This document shows positions 5,638 to 11,165 of a stretch of 64,000 nucleotides of DNA, in pieces (the first letter of the stretch is position 1; each line of letters starts with the position of its first letter). The stretch is from an uncultured Cellulomonas sp. GTDB lineage: Bacteria > Actinomycetota > Actinomycetes > Actinomycetales > Cellulomonadaceae. Below the pieces are notes generated by a model. The model saw nothing but the letters and a program-made list of their open reading frames with translations, did no database searches and was not told the DNA's origin. The DNA lies in contig NZ_CANLTL010000003.1 in assembly GCF_947494015.1 (NCBI RefSeq), positions 248,001 to 312,000 of the forward strand, given 5' to 3'. Position numbers and translations under genes: made by a program.

Positions 5638-5705
5638 CCCGCCCGTCCGGGCGCCCAGCCCCCGATCGAGGCGCACGCGAGCCCGTCGTGAGGGGCCTCG
5701 GCCGG

Positions 5706-5711
5706 TACAAT
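5706..5711 (+). promoter_or_regulatory. -10 box TACAAT of sigA
   Basis: TACAAT is the best housekeeping-type -10 in the window and lies about 55 nt before the sigA start, giving a leader of roughly 45-50 nt. No convincing -35 hexamer was found. Confidence 0.55.
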
Positions 5712-5765
5712 AGATGTGTACCCCCGGGGCTCGACGTCCGAGCCTGCGCTGCCGAAAGGTCGTTC

Positions 5766-7334
5766 GTGTCATCCCTCTCCCCGAATCCTGCACTACCGCG
5801 CGAGTTCGAGCACCCCGCACTCCAGGAGCTGGTGGTGCACGGACGTACGCACGGCACGGTGGACGCTGAGGCGTTCCGTGCTGCGTGCGAGTCCGCGGAG
5901 GTCAACGACGCCAAGCGGCTGAAGGTCGTCTACCGCGGCCTCGCGGCCGCCGGTGTCACCGTCGCGGAGCCGGTGACCGGCACGGTCAAGGTCGCTGCCG
6001 CCACCACCACCGCCCGCAAGGGCGCGAGCGCGACGGTCGACCCCGAGACGCCCGCCCCGGCGAAGCGCCGCACGCCGGCCAAGAAGGCCACCGCGGCCGA
6101 GGGCGACCCGGCCGACGCCAAGCCGGCGACCAAGCGTGCGAGCGCCGCCAAGACGACGGCAGCCAAGGCCAGCACCGCCAAGGCCTCCACCGCCAAGTCC
6201 GCCGCTGCCGCGAAGGCCGCGGCCGCCGATCCGGGCGCCGTGACCGACGCGCCGGACCCGGAGGACGTCGCCGTCGAGGACGTCGACGCCGCGGTGGTCG
6301 GCGACGACGCCGTGGTCGACGGTGCAGCCACCAAGCCGGGCGAGGAGACCGAGGAGGGTGTCGGCTTCGTCTACTCCGACGCCGACGACGACGACGCCCC
6401 GGCGCAGCAGGTCGTCACCGCCGGTGCCACCGCGGACCCGGTCAAGGACTACCTCAAGCAGATCGGCAAGGTCGCCCTCCTCAACGCCGAGCAGGAGGTC
6501 GAGCTCGCCAAGCGGATCGAGGCCGGCCTGTTCGCCGAGGAGCGGCTGAACTCCGGGACGAAGCTCGAGCCGAAGATGCGGCGCGAGCTGGAGTGGATCG
6601 CGGGCGACGGCCGTCGCGCCAAGAACCACCTGCTCGAGGCCAACCTGCGCCTGGTGGTGTCGCTGGCCAAGCGCTACACCGGTCGCGGCATGCTCTTCCT
6701 GGACCTGATCCAGGAGGGCAACCTCGGCCTGATCCGTGCGGTCGAGAAGTTCGACTACACCAAGGGCTACAAGTTCTCGACCTACGCGACGTGGTGGATC
6801 CGCCAGGCCATCACCCGCGCGATGGCGGACCAGGCGCGGACCATCCGCATCCCGGTGCACATGGTCGAGGTCATCAACAAGCTCGCCCGCGTCCAGCGGC
6901 AGATGCTCCAGGACCTGGGCCGCGAGCCCACGCCGGAGGAGCTCGCCAAGGAGCTCGACATGACCCCGGAGAAGGTCGTCGAGGTCCAGAAGTACGGTCG
7001 CGAGCCGATCTCCCTGCACACCCCTCTCGGCGAGGACGGCGACAGCGAGTTCGGTGACCTCATCGAGGACTCCGAGGCGGTCGTGCCTGCGGACGCGGTC
7101 AGCTTCACGCTGCTGCAGGAGCAGCTGCACCAGGTGCTCGACACCCTGTCCGAGCGCGAGGCCGGCGTCGTGTCCATGCGGTTCGGCCTGACCGACGGCC
7201 AGCCCAAGACGCTGGACGAGATCGGCAAGGTGTACGGGGTCACGCGCGAGCGGATCCGTCAGATCGAGTCCAAGACGATGTCCAAGCTGCGTCACCCCAG
7301 CCGTTCGCAGGTGCTGCGCGACTACCTCGACTGA
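5766..7334 (+). CDS. sigA: Primary RNA polymerase sigma factor SigA/HrdB (RpoD)
   Basis: This 522-residue group 1 sigma-70 directs housekeeping transcription. Residues 1-65 correspond to region 1.1. Residues about 80-165 are an Ala/Lys/Thr-rich, histone-H1-like segment with repeated TAKAS and AAKAA units, followed by an acidic stretch. Region 1.2 starts at [16 protein letters not shown], region 2 contains [20 protein letters not shown] and [16 protein letters not shown], and region 4 contains [19 protein letters not shown] and ends LRDYLD. GTG 5766 is preceded by GAAAGG. The gene ends in a strong hairpin terminator. The TANNNT -10 boxes seen throughout the window match promoters this sigma should read. 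Confidence 0.97.
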
Positions 7335-8111: not shown

Positions 8112-8121
8112 CGATACGTTC
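8112..8121 (+). promoter_or_regulatory. Candidate -10 region of the riboswitch transcript
   Basis: CGATACGTTC contains TACGTT (8115-8120), so transcription would start a few nucleotides before P1 of the riboswitch. The same 10-mer precedes the LysM gene. No convincing -35 lies 16-18 nt upstream. Confidence 0.4.
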
Positions 8122-8124
8122 TGG

Positions 8125-8210
8125 GTCGTCAGCGAGAAGGGCAAACCCGTCGAGAGGCGGGGACGCAAAGCCACGGGACCCCCGAGGGGTCAGCCGGGTC
8201 ACCGAACGAC
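8125..8210 (+). promoter_or_regulatory. Cyclic di-GMP-I (GEMM-I) riboswitch
   Basis: The segment carries the conserved GEMM-I core. AGGGCAAACC is followed by a helix capped with a GAGA (GNRA-type) tetraloop at 8151-8156, then GGGACGCAAAGCC, which holds the tetraloop-receptor side. A second helix, GACCCC/GGGGTC, has a short loop, and the 3' strand AGCCGGGTCACCG matches the class signature AGCxGGGTxACC. P1 closes by GTCGT 8125-8129 pairing with ACGAC 8206-8210. The P1 3' strand is followed with no gap by the Shine-Dalgarno AGGAG at 8211-8215 of the next gene. This fits translational control by c-di-GMP, although the on/off sense cannot be read from sequence alone. Confidence 0.87.
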
Positions 8211-8221
8211 AGGAGCGACAG

Positions 8222-8422
8222 ATGTCCGACTACACCACCCCCTCCCGCGCGGGCATGACCGGCGACGGCGTGCCGTCCTCGGAGCAGGGCCCCCACCTGA
8301 CGCTGTCGCCGACGGGGCCGCAGCGACCGGAGGCCGGGTCCGCGCTGGAGCGGCTCCTGCGCCGCCAGACCATCACGACCGGAGCCACCCTGCTCGGCTT
8401 CGTCCCGGCCCAGGTGCGCTGA
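8222..8422 (+). CDS. Orphan 66-residue protein under c-di-GMP riboswitch control
   Basis: The ORF starts at ATG 8222, 6 nt after AGGAG, directly behind the riboswitch, and ends before a strong terminator, so it is the only gene of its transcript. The protein has a polar, Ser/Thr/Gly/Pro-rich N-terminal half and a C-terminal 26 residues that may form a helix (ALERLLRRQT) followed by a hydrophobic segment (TGATLLGFVP). It has no cysteine, no signal peptide and no recognised domain. It could be a small effector of c-di-GMP signalling or a leader peptide; the clean ribosome-binding site and isolation argue for a real product. I do not recognise a family. Confidence 0.68.
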   Translation: MSDYTTPSRAGMTGDGVPSSEQGPHLTLSPTGPQRPEAGSALERLLRRQTITTGATLLGFVPAQVR

Positions 8423-8473
8423 CCGCGCGTCCCCCCGGGATCGCGGGGGCGAGGAGCAACCCGGACCGCAGCA

Positions 8474-8511
8474 CGACGAAGGGCCCGACCGGATGGTCGG
8501 GCCCTTCGTCG
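8474..8511 (+). terminator. Terminator of the riboswitch unit, bidirectional
   Basis: A perfect 17-bp stem, starting CGACGAAGGGCCC and ending GGGCCCTTCGTCG, encloses the loop GGAT. It lies between two convergent genes: it ends the riboswitch transcript and also lies downstream of the DUF7455 gene. Confidence 0.88.
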
Positions 8512-8552
8512 CGGGGGTCGCGGGTCGCAGGGGACCCGCTGCCCGGTCCGGC

Positions 8553-8774
8553 TCAGCGGACCGCCGCGGCGCCGGCGCCGTGCTCGGCGAGGAGGCGGTC
8601 GGTCTCGTCCTGGACGTGGGTCGCCAGGGCGGTGAACTTCGGGGCGTGCTCTCGGGCGTGGTGGGCGCAGAACAGGAGCTCGCCGCTCGGCATCACCACA
8701 CGGACATAGGCCTGGGCGTTGCAACGGTCGCAACGGTCTGCCGCGGTCAGGGGTTCGGTCGTCGTTGCTGTCAC
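8553..8774 (-). CDS. DUF7455 small zinc-ribbon-like protein
   Basis: This is a 73-residue protein. Two cysteines in DRCDRCNAQAYVRV and the later FCAHHAREH form a probable metal-binding Cys2-Cys/His cluster. Proteins of this kind are commonly found near hrdB/sigA and the second gyrB-like gene in actinobacteria, as here. Function is unknown; a role in transcription is only a guess from its zinc-ribbon look and location. The GTG start at 8774 has no clear ribosome-binding site. Confidence 0.85.
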   Translation of the reverse strand: MTATTTEPLTAADRCDRCNAQAYVRVVMPSGELLFCAHHAREHAPKFTALATHVQDETDRLLAEHGAGAAAVR

Positions 8775-9038
8775 GAGAACATGTAACCATCCGACCGCAG
8801 GATGCATGCCGTCGGGGAACCGCAATTCGCTCACCGCGAAGCCGGGACCACCCGACCGGCGGTGTGGACCCCGACCGGGGCGTCGGCACCACCGCCGGCG
8901 CCGCGGTCCGCACCACGGCCGGCACCCGGCCGCACCGCGGCGCGGAGACCGCGCCGACACGCCTGCGCGCGCCGCCCGGGCGGGCTCGACGGCATGGCGC
9001 CGCGGGGGGCGGCGGTGCAACGACTAGGCTCGGACCTC

Positions 9039-11165
9039 GTGTCGACCGCTTCCGCTGAGTCCAGCTACACCGCCCGGCACCTGTCGGTGCTCGAGGGCCT
9101 GGAGGCGGTGCGCAAGCGCCCCGGGATGTACATCGGCTCGACCGACTCCCGGGGCCTCATGCACTGTCTGTGGGAGATCATCGACAACTCCGTCGACGAG
9201 GCGCTGGCCGGGCACTGCTCGATCATCGACGTGATCCTGCACGAGGACCAGTCCGTGGAGGTGCGTGACGACGGGCGTGGCATCCCGGTCGACGCGGAGC
9301 CCAAGACCGGGCTCAGCGGCGTCGAGGTCGTCTTCACCAAGCTGCACGCGGGCGGCAAGTTCGGCGGTGGCTCGTACGCGGCCTCGGGCGGCCTGCACGG
9401 GGTCGGGTCGAGCGTCGTCAACGCGCTCTCCGCGCGCCTGGACGTCGAGGTGGACCGCGGCGGCCGGACGCACCGCATGACGTTCCACCAGGGCGAGCCC
9501 GGCGTGTTCGACGACGGCGTCGCCGGCCCGCGCCCGGACGCGCCGTTCCGGCCGTTCGTCGACAACTCCGAGCTCGCCGTCGTCGGCAAGGTCCCGAGGG
9601 GGCGCACGGGGACGCGGGTGCGCTACTGGGCCGACCGGCAGGTCTTCCCGAAGACCGCCGTCTTCTCCTACGACGAGCTCGTCACCCGGATCCGGCAGAC
9701 CACCTTCCTGGTGCCGGGCCTCGCGATCACCGTGCGCGACGAGCGCCGCCTGCCCGGCACGCCCGGTGCAGACGGACCGCACGAGGAGTCCTTCGTCCAC
9801 CACGGCGGCACGCGCGACTTCGTGGAGTTCCTCGCGCCGGACGCCCCGGTCACCGACACCTGGCACCTGACCGGCTCGGGCAGCTTCACCGAGACGGTGC
9901 CCGTGCTCGACTCCCGCGGTCACCTCAGCCCGCAGGAGGTCACCCGCGACTGCGAGGTCGACATCGCCCTGCGGTGGGGGACCGGCTACGAGACCGAGGT
10001 GCGCAGCTTCGTCAACGTCATCGCGACGCCGAAGGGCGGCGCCCACCTGGCGGGCTTCGAGACCGGGCTGCTGCGCACCGTCCGCAAGGCGGTCGATGCG
10101 AACGCGCGCCGGCTCAAGGTGTCCACCAAGGACAACGAGCGCATCGAGAAGGACGACGTGCTCGCCGGGCTGACCGCCGTGCTGACGGTCCGGCTCGCCG
10201 AGCCGCAGTTCGAGGGCCAGACCAAGGAGGTGCTGGGCACCGCGCCGGTGCGCGGCATCGTGGCCAAGGTCGTCGACACCGAGCTCGGGGCGCTGCTCAC
10301 CTCCACGAAGCGGGACGAGAAGGCGCAGGCGAGCCTGCTGCTGGACAAGGTCGTCGCCGAGATGCGCGCCCGGATGAGCGCACGCAAGCAGAAGGAGATC
10401 TCGCGCCGCAAGAACGCGCTTGAGAGCTCGTCCCTGCCGGCCAAGCTCGCGGACTGCCGCAGCGACGACGTCGACCGCTCCGAGCTGTTCATCGTCGAGG
10501 GGGACAGCGCGCTGGGGACGGCGAAGCTCGCGCGCAGCTCGGACTTCCAGGCGCTGCTGCCGATCCGCGGCAAGATCCTCAACGTCCAGAAGGCGTCGAT
10601 CACGGACATGCTCAAGAACGCCGAGTGCGCCGCGATCATCCAGGTGATCGGGGCCGGCTCCGGTCGCTCGTTCGAGCTCGACGCCGCGCGCTACGGCAAG
10701 ATCGTGCTGATGACCGACGCCGACGTCGACGGCGCCCACATCCGCACCCTGCTGCTGACGCTCTTCTTCCGGTACATGCGCCCGCTCATCGATGCCGGCC
10801 GGGTGTACGCGGCGGTGCCGCCGCTGCACCGGGTGGAGGTGATCGGCGCCGGCTCGCGCAAGAACGAGTACATCTACACGTACTCCGAGGCGGAGCTCGT
10901 CGCGACGCTCAAGCGGCTGGACCGGGCCGGCAAGCGCTACAAGGAGGACATCCAGCGCTACAAGGGCCTGGGGGAGATGGACGCCGACCAGCTCGCGGAG
11001 ACCACGATGGACCCGCGGCACCGGACCCTGCGCCGCGTCCGGATGGAGCACGCCGAGGCCGCCGAGCGGGTGTTCGAGCTGCTGATGGGCACCGACGTCG
11101 CACCGCGCAAGGACTTCATCGTCGCCGGGGCGCACCACGTCGACTCGAGCCGCATCGACGTCTGA
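9039..11165 (+). CDS. parE: DNA topoisomerase IV subunit B (ParE, GyrB-like)
   Basis: This is the 708-residue ATPase subunit. The GHKL ATPase motifs are EIIDNSVDEALAGH, DDGRGIPVD and GGLHGVGSSVVNAL. The transducer domain follows, then the Toprim domain with VEGDSALGTAKLAR and DADVDGAHIRTLLLT. The LGTAKLAR/DFQALLPIRGK form is the one seen in actinobacterial ParE rather than GyrB (EGDSAGGSAK). TAGGCT lies 8 nt before GTG 9039, so the mRNA is probably leaderless. Its partner ParC is encoded convergently at 12417-14897. Together they would decatenate replicated chromosomes. Confidence 0.95.
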   Translation: MSTASAESSYTARHLSVLEGLEAVRKRPGMYIGSTDSRGLMHCLWEIIDNSVDEALAGHCSIIDVILHEDQSVEVRDDGRGIPVDAEPKTGLSGVEVVFTKLHAGGKFGGGSYAASGGLHGVGSSVVNALSARLDVEVDRGGRTHRMTFHQGEPGVFDDGVAGPRPDAPFRPFVDNSELAVVGKVPRGRTGTRVRYWADRQVFPKTAVFSYDELVTRIRQTTFLVPGLAITVRDERRLPGTPGADGPHEESFVHHGGTRDFVEFLAPDAPVTDTWHLTGSGSFTETVPVLDSRGHLSPQEVTRDCEVDIALRWGTGYETEVRSFVNVIATPKGGAHLAGFETGLLRTVRKAVDANARRLKVSTKDNERIEKDDVLAGLTAVLTVRLAEPQFEGQTKEVLGTAPVRGIVAKVVDTELGALLTSTKRDEKAQASLLLDKVVAEMRARMSARKQKEISRRKNALESSSLPAKLADCRSDDVDRSELFIVEGDSALGTAKLARSSDFQALLPIRGKILNVQKASITDMLKNAECAAIIQVIGAGSGRSFELDAARYGKIVLMTDADVDGAHIRTLLLTLFFRYMRPLIDAGRVYAAVPPLHRVEVIGAGSRKNEYIYTYSEAELVATLKRLDRAGKRYKEDIQRYKGLGEMDADQLAETTMDPRHRTLRRVRMEHAEAAERVFELLMGTDVAPRKDFIVAGAHHVDSSRIDV

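Follow-up and report, generated by a model that had tools for sequence, protein, structure and literature searches.

Why would a c-di-GMP-I riboswitch control a single gene of only 66 codons, and what might the small product of such a gene do? This question is raised by a locus in a stretch of 64,000 nucleotides (hereafter, the window) from the genome of an uncultured Cellulomonas sp. When the whole window was searched with cmscan, the only Rfam match at gathering scores was a c-di-GMP-I riboswitch aptamer on the forward strand at positions 8131-8207 (RF03167, 63.1 bits, gathering threshold 59, E = 1.5e-12). In the genome search, the same aptamer (G000:C3:256130-256206) scored 65.0 bits with RF01051 (gathering threshold 35, E = 3.0e-12), so that it matches both of these models, which form part of one Rfam clan. 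The preliminary description of this DNA had reported a nearly canonical c-di-GMP-I core and proposed a search with the RF01051 covariance model; the significant score of that search and the core itself bear out the claim. From the sequence and the Rfam alignment, the core consists of GGCAAACC, a GAGA loop of the GNRA type, GGGACGCAAAGCC and AGCCGGGTCACC, and the motifs that hold the ligand-contacting residues, AGGGCAAACC, ACGCAAAGCC and ACCGA, are all present. We take these contacts to be G20, A47 and C92, by a mapping of the numbers onto the present sequence that is our own. Judged by these features, the element is almost certainly a genuine c-di-GMP-I riboswitch. It resembles the other RF01051 systems in sequence, structure, score and canonical contact positions, and its sister copies likewise precede exported proteins and c-di-GMP enzymes; it differs from them in that the only target here is a microprotein without a family entry, and in that no separate expression platform was seen: the aptamer would open the transcript, and it reaches right up to the Shine-Dalgarno sequence.

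The microprotein gene (P0001, 66 codons) occupies positions 8222-8422 on the forward strand, from the ATG at 8222 to the TGA that ends at 8422, stop codon included. Neither Pfam nor NCBIfam gave a match to its product at E<=1. The AlphaFold2 model (m841b9faae30a), which is of low confidence (mean pLDDT 63.1, pTM 0.31), contains one helix, predicted for codons 41-55 (8342-8386), and is otherwise unstructured; the C-terminal tail, LLGFVPAQVR (codons 57-66, 8390-8419), resembles the C-terminus of BldC. Downstream, a perfect 17-bp hairpin (8474-8511), a putative shared terminator, separates the gene from a convergent DUF7455-type gene. The region 8420-8530 has a fold z-score of -5.5, and the hairpin itself is as previously described. 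However, no terminator-like site with a T-run was detected in the scan; what had been called a “17-bp terminator” lacks a U-tract and would be no more than an atypical terminator that also serves the convergent gene. The transcript would be about 390 nt long and, with the hairpin and the convergent gene coming next, it appears to carry a single small ORF, as had been claimed.

Upstream of the riboswitch lies sigA (5688-7334, forward strand), a name taken from the preliminary description, with which a sub-cut-off TIGR02479 match of 113.6 bits (G000:C3:254696-255295) agrees in pointing to a sigma factor. The DUF7455-type gene (8553-8786, reverse strand, in an ORF that runs on to 9020) and parE (8802-11165, forward strand, with the true start probably near 9040) owe their names to the same source. 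All 5 genomes of the genus have orthologues of the three genes, and each shows the order sigA-riboswitch-microprotein-DUF7455-parE at one locus. Among the 148 loci examined, only these five, all from the genus of the window, have the sigA/DUF7455/parE neighbourhood, and none from other genera; the suggestion that this neighbourhood is conserved thus holds within the genus, and beyond it the neighbourhood was not seen.

The gene itself, described previously as an orphan, turned out to belong to a family. We read the first ORF behind each of 264 aptamer cores found by pattern (repeats included), which gave 67 unique short proteins that carry P.Q in their tail; after L137 and L139 were set apart as BldC-like, 65 unique members of 38-66 aa remained, from Cellulomonas, Actinotalea and relatives, all behind the same riboswitch but at other genomic places. 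The P.Q tail belonged to the filter, so that its invariance in the 65 members is partly built in; L354, detected by profile without this filter, also carries P.Q. Within the genus of the window, the members with 62 and 65 residues have the same sequences as the proteins found in ‘Cellulomonas fimi strain SB’ (L203) and in Pengzhenrongella frigida (L164). The aptamer is present in 116 of the 221 family genomes and in 7 of the 25 genera.

We built a profile (A1) from 41 aptamer-linked members, one of them the window protein; in 111 family genomes, it yielded 40 matches at E<=0.01. All 27 matches at E<=1e-5, which fall in five genera (g1, g8, g13, g16 and g20), lie behind an aptamer, 25 by coordinates and two by inspection of the locus. 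The window microprotein itself is a weak match (E = 5e-4). Five of the 13 weaker matches are located behind an aptamer (three from the genus, one in G071 and one in G101) and eight have no demonstrated aptamer, including G004:C1:1843995, where inspection found none. The first protein search had produced matches at E<=0.01 in 10 of 121 genomes; five of these were those of the genus, and the other five (L010, L012-L015), which are aptamer-free, were taken as chance. The order-level profile search gave matches at E<=1e-4 in 8 of 297 genomes, seven from the family and one false: L356 (E = 9e-5, outside the family) overlaps longer ORFs on the opposite strand, has no aptamer and was rejected. Given that the order-level search missed the window's own genome, diverged members elsewhere could have been missed as well.

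Every one of the 5 genus genomes has a homologue of the microprotein, as do relatives, so that the ORF behind the riboswitch is conserved in related genomes, one of the points on which the preliminary description had made its case depend. In the five members from the genus, the C-terminal L-x-F-V-P-x-Q-x-R is identical whereas the remainder of the protein drifts. In hhalign, the Actinotalea-type and MDQ-type subgroups matched with a probability of 91.7 %, and the window's group matched the rest at 59 % (E = 9e-5 for one comparison); the window's group is a probable diverged member of the family.

The leaders of the family have features of their own. The pattern TANNNT-N5-8-GTCA occurs in 59 of the 67 unique microprotein-class leaders, a set that takes in the BldC-like L137 and L139 (10.6 expected from shuffling), and in none of the 55 bldC leaders (2.2 expected). 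In the window, the putative -10 element is TACGTT (8115-8120, forward strand), 7 nt upstream of the GTCA of P1. Because this conserved box lies 5-8 nt before P1, transcription probably starts at the aptamer, with a predicted start near 8125-8128; the scan recognised no promoter with a -35 hexamer. The closing helix P1 (8128-8210, forward strand), delineated from the sequence, the Rfam alignment and folds with and without the aptamer constraint, pairs GUC 8128-8130 with GAC 8208-8210 and then CG 8133-8134 with CG 8203-8204, although a competing register, GUCGU 8125-8129 with ACGAC 8206-8210, is possible. Related P1 strands are present in homologous leaders as well. The 3' arm of P1 touches the Shine-Dalgarno sequence AGGAG (8211-8215, forward strand), in agreement with the earlier statement that P1 ends at this element, and the ATG follows at 8222.

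The platform around the Shine-Dalgarno sequence differs between leaders. In some leaders, P1 is able to extend into it; in others, including that of the window, P1 stops short, and the modelled folds of homologous leaders contain no conserved alternative fold that would sequester it. The modelled accessibility of the Shine-Dalgarno sequence in the window is unchanged between open (0.49) and closed P1 (0.51). Among 40 microprotein leaders, closure of P1 raised the modelled accessibility by over 0.2 in 9 and lowered it in none; among 48 bldC leaders, the corresponding numbers are 13 and 2. The design of the model itself leans towards a rise, since most of what closing P1 does is to set bases free. 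An ON-switch hairpin between the P1 3' arm GAC and a GUC before the ATG, noticed by eye in some Cellulomonas leaders, is not general. Highly similar GEMM-I aptamers are reported to act as either ON or OFF switches (PMC9262584). The position of the aptamer in the window suggests translational control by the riboswitch, in either direction.

The microprotein shares this riboswitch class with genes of several kinds. The window's own genome contains five aptamers, one ahead of bldC (L005/L020, G000:C3:151509-151583), one ahead of the microprotein and three ahead of proteins that look exported; the bldC co-target was identified as such by NF033787 (101.7 bits, cut-off 77). Behind 129 aptamers from 36 genomes, a count from which two further aptamers were left out, the first gene is bldC in 46 cases, a member of the microprotein class in 34 (L137 and L139 included) and, by a crude hydrophobic-stretch test, an exported protein in 26. 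The remaining first genes are 14 short leader ORFs, 3 EAL genes and 6 others, one of which, L032, is also an EAL gene by eye. Membership of the microprotein in a c-di-GMP/BldC regulon appears to us highly likely. On a 6.5-kb contig of the same genome (G000:C30), two divergent aptamers (L001 and L003) each precede an exported-looking protein, one of which contains PKD-like repeats by eye; the two ends of this contig hold the same stretch in inverted orientation.

Short ORFs of other kinds follow some of the aptamers. In L202, L215, L250, L251, L268 and L279, of which L202 and L215 are from Arthrobacter, the aptamer is followed by an ORF of 36-46 aa ending in HE, with a stop codon that overlaps the start of a response-regulator gene, which makes translational coupling likely. 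The unit in the window resembles these Arthrobacter leader-peptide units in the succession of a c-di-GMP-I aptamer and a small ORF, but their ORF overlaps the response-regulator gene, whereas that of the window stands alone and is conserved. In genus g8, the aptamer is followed by a leader ORF of 23-43 aa, in several cases ahead of an exported-looking gene (L040, L070, L079, L085, L087, L089, L091, L098, L107, L108, L109, L112, L133 and L138).

BldC and the microprotein are encoded in the same genomes, each behind a riboswitch of this class, and their C-termini are alike, LLGFVPAQVR in the microprotein and LLGGVPEQR in the BldC of the same genome, that is, a shared LLGxVPxQ tail. In other genera, the microprotein also contains the RWA helix, and in the Actinotalea-type members the order of RWA and tail is that of BldC. 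When these two blocks, RWA (or WA) and the tail, were compared with BldC, the profile of the whole family scored 18.7, against 10.7 (sd 1.2) for column shuffles, a lenient control, none of which scored as high in 300, and 9.7 for the reversed profile; three subgroups scored 16.9-18.5, with 4, 2 and 1 of 300 shuffles as high. For the window's group, 296 of 300 shuffles were lower, but the first block is meaningless there and the tail alone counts: RWA is absent in the genus of the window, and the W is missing in 7 of the 65 members, including all five of the genus. The microprotein differs from the BldC family in showing no sign of a winged helix-turn-helix, with no Pfam match and a single helix in the low-confidence model, and in having no significant profile match. 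Neither P0001 nor the two other members searched matched NF033787 at its cut-off of 77, and the family profile found nothing significant among solved structures, where BldC (6ama) appeared by its tail at E = 4.5, below chance hits.

The tail motif has a counterpart in FliA. In Cellulomonas marina (L211, from 2345 onward), a c-di-GMP-I aptamer lies directly upstream of a gene for a FliA/WhiG-type sigma factor. The N-terminal extension of this protein carries VIPAQR and drew our attention to the motif. The strict form, [VILMF]P.Q, is present in 11 of 20 FliA N-termini from genera with the riboswitch (0.72 expected; 10 of 19 without L211) and in 0 of 11 from riboswitch-free genera (0.43 expected). 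FliA of the window's own genome is among the nine without the strict motif and has LPEPR only. In the looser form V-P-x-[QP], such motifs are frequent in FliA N-terminal extensions of the riboswitch genera (L211, L293-L297, L299, L301-L312 and L314). A fusion of the microprotein with FliA in L211 was considered and dropped because FliA of genus g16 (L297, L299 and L301) has a similar extension, ..VTAPxGVVPQPH.., and no aptamer core was found near 30 FliA loci (about 1.5 kb on each side); more likely, the L211 extension is a normal FliA N-terminus. From the BldC-like tail of the microprotein and the VPxQ-type motif of FliA, we propose a docking tail common to these proteins.

The following mechanism would bring these findings together. 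The riboswitch would extend from the inferred transcription start to the ribosome-binding site of an mRNA with a single gene, and binding of c-di-GMP would close or strengthen P1 beside AGGAG, altering translation of the microprotein, ON or OFF. The product, probably a protein that is largely disordered apart from a single short helix and ends in a conserved tail (F-V-P-x-Q-x-R in the genus), would be part of a Cellulomonadaceae regulon, where riboswitches of this class also lie ahead of bldC, exported proteins and EAL phosphodiesterases. It could act as a protein-protein adaptor or competitor, with a tail that mimics the C-terminus of BldC and docks onto a putative partner of BldC, perhaps FliA, and c-di-GMP would thereby set the balance between BldC (perhaps also the flagellar-type sigma factor FliA) and the microprotein. 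The aptamer, the gene, its conservation, its linkage to the riboswitch and the shared regulon emerge from the sequence analysis; c-di-GMP as the ligand in this organism, control at the level of translation and action through the tail are steps that we infer. Taken as a whole, an explanation by which the riboswitch sets the microprotein level and the tail mediates competition with BldC is possible, and we adopt it tentatively; the tail-competition mechanism as such we regard as doubtful. The most far-reaching version, whereby one riboswitch class controls BldC together with a dedicated microprotein that has the BldC tail (and, in sister genera, the Trp31 interface helix), and this microprotein competes with BldC or caps the DNA-bound BldC oligomer and links it to FliA, seems improbable.

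Several other explanations have to be weighed against this one. The aptamer might sense a different cyclic dinucleotide, as a GEMM-I aptamer of the 3',3'-cGAMP type or by recognising the ligand of the GGC variant class, but this we consider very unlikely. The notion draws on the success of RF03167 (c-di-GMP-I-GGC) in the cmscan clan competition, with a score slightly over its gathering threshold, and on the single change G20A, which gives the GEMM-I aptamer form studied with cGAMP (PMC6274999). However, RF01051 has the higher bit score, and in a set of 214 unique aptamers retrieved by pattern, 204 have G at position ‘20’ and 7 have A there, and 213 have A at position ‘47’, a count partly preset by the 119 loci among the sources that were chosen by a pattern with this A fixed. 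In the window, position ‘20’ is G, not the A of the cGAMP type. Furthermore, the window has A where the RF03167 consensus has G in GGGACGC-x-AAGCC, a residue that is presumably among those for which the GGC variant is named. The canonical look of the mapped contacts makes c-di-GMP the likely ligand in the host organism; EAL phosphodiesterase genes that follow this riboswitch in relatives also speak for it, and the genome is rich in GGDEF domains (34 PF00990 matches, some of them pieces of one domain). A different objection is that the ORF might be translated into a dispensable product, with the unit working as a riboswitch-controlled regulatory RNA or leader, or with the gene decaying. Other aptamers indeed precede short ORFs, without noticed mutual similarity, that lie ahead of a real gene (Actinotalea-type, Arthrobacter), the N-terminal half of the microprotein is poorly conserved, and pN/pS over all 65 members is 0.97 (pN<pS in 1099 of 2080 pairs), a value that is uninformative at such divergence. 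Within groups, however, purifying selection is apparent, with pN/pS of 0.32-0.78 in seven subgroups and pN<pS in 78 of 79 pairs; tail-bearing homologues have been retained in five genera, and the unit in the window contains no downstream gene. We consider a dispensable product unlikely, and the gene is very probably translated and conserved.

As a further alternative, the microprotein might derive from an old duplicate of the riboswitch-bldC unit that lost the wing, kept the recognition helix (Arg30-Trp31) and the tail, and now caps or poisons the BldC oligomer, much as plant-type microProteins do. The R and W of TRWA are, we assume, Arg30 and Trp31 of BldC. Apart from the order of RWA and tail in the Actinotalea-type microproteins, this view is favoured by decayed or truncated BldC-like ORFs that occur behind the riboswitch in genus g8 (genomes G098 and G050). 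One of these, L137 (1611, reverse strand), matches NF033787 at 49.6 bits, below the cut-off of 77, and Pfam HTH_17 at E = 0.015; the other, L139 (1611, forward strand), is BldC-like by eye and has no Pfam match; both end in PTQVR. BldC itself oligomerises head to tail, with Trp31, Phe21 and Leu43 as the interface core and Arg30 reading DNA (PMC5859096). However, hhalign did not support homology with BldC (probability 1.8-7.8 %, E = 0.004-0.03 for one comparison), the W is absent in the genus of the window, and two short blocks may be convergent. The likeness is suggestive of descent from BldC, but an origin and poisoning mode of this kind we judge rather unlikely.

Under the most far-reaching version, improbable as it seems, the locus would be a case of a riboswitch-made microProtein in a bacterial lifestyle switch, and V-P-x-Q-R would be a new short docking motif common to BldC, FliA and the microprotein. 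To our knowledge, c-di-GMP output has been little explored in Micrococcales relative to Streptomyces. A search of the open-access literature, with subscription papers outside it, found no paper that joins BldC with a c-di-GMP riboswitch and none that joins Cellulomonas, or Actinobacteria, with a c-di-GMP(-I) riboswitch. As far as can be read from the genomes, a single class of RNA sensor connects BldC, a developmental regulator, with phosphodiesterases, surface-type proteins and a small protein of five genera, and the linked microprotein family, which has no library entry, occurs in genomes where the same, canonical riboswitch class controls bldC. Neither Pfam nor NCBIfam has a match for the members that were scanned, yet every one of the strong homologues sits behind the aptamer. 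Because this pairing of sensor and microprotein recurs where the same sensor often serves BldC, we see in the microprotein a good candidate for a new component of the c-di-GMP/BldC circuit.

An additional element was noticed in a few leaders. GCCGAT[AC], which we take to be a sigma-28-like -10 element, is found ahead of P1 in 8 of 214 leaders (0.45 expected). In L018, L019, L020 and L031, which are bldC and exported-protein leaders from the genus of the window, GCCGAT lies 8 nt upstream of the P1 GTC (counted after the seventh base), and the microprotein leaders L028 and L064 contain one GCCGAT[AC] each, at a different distance from P1.
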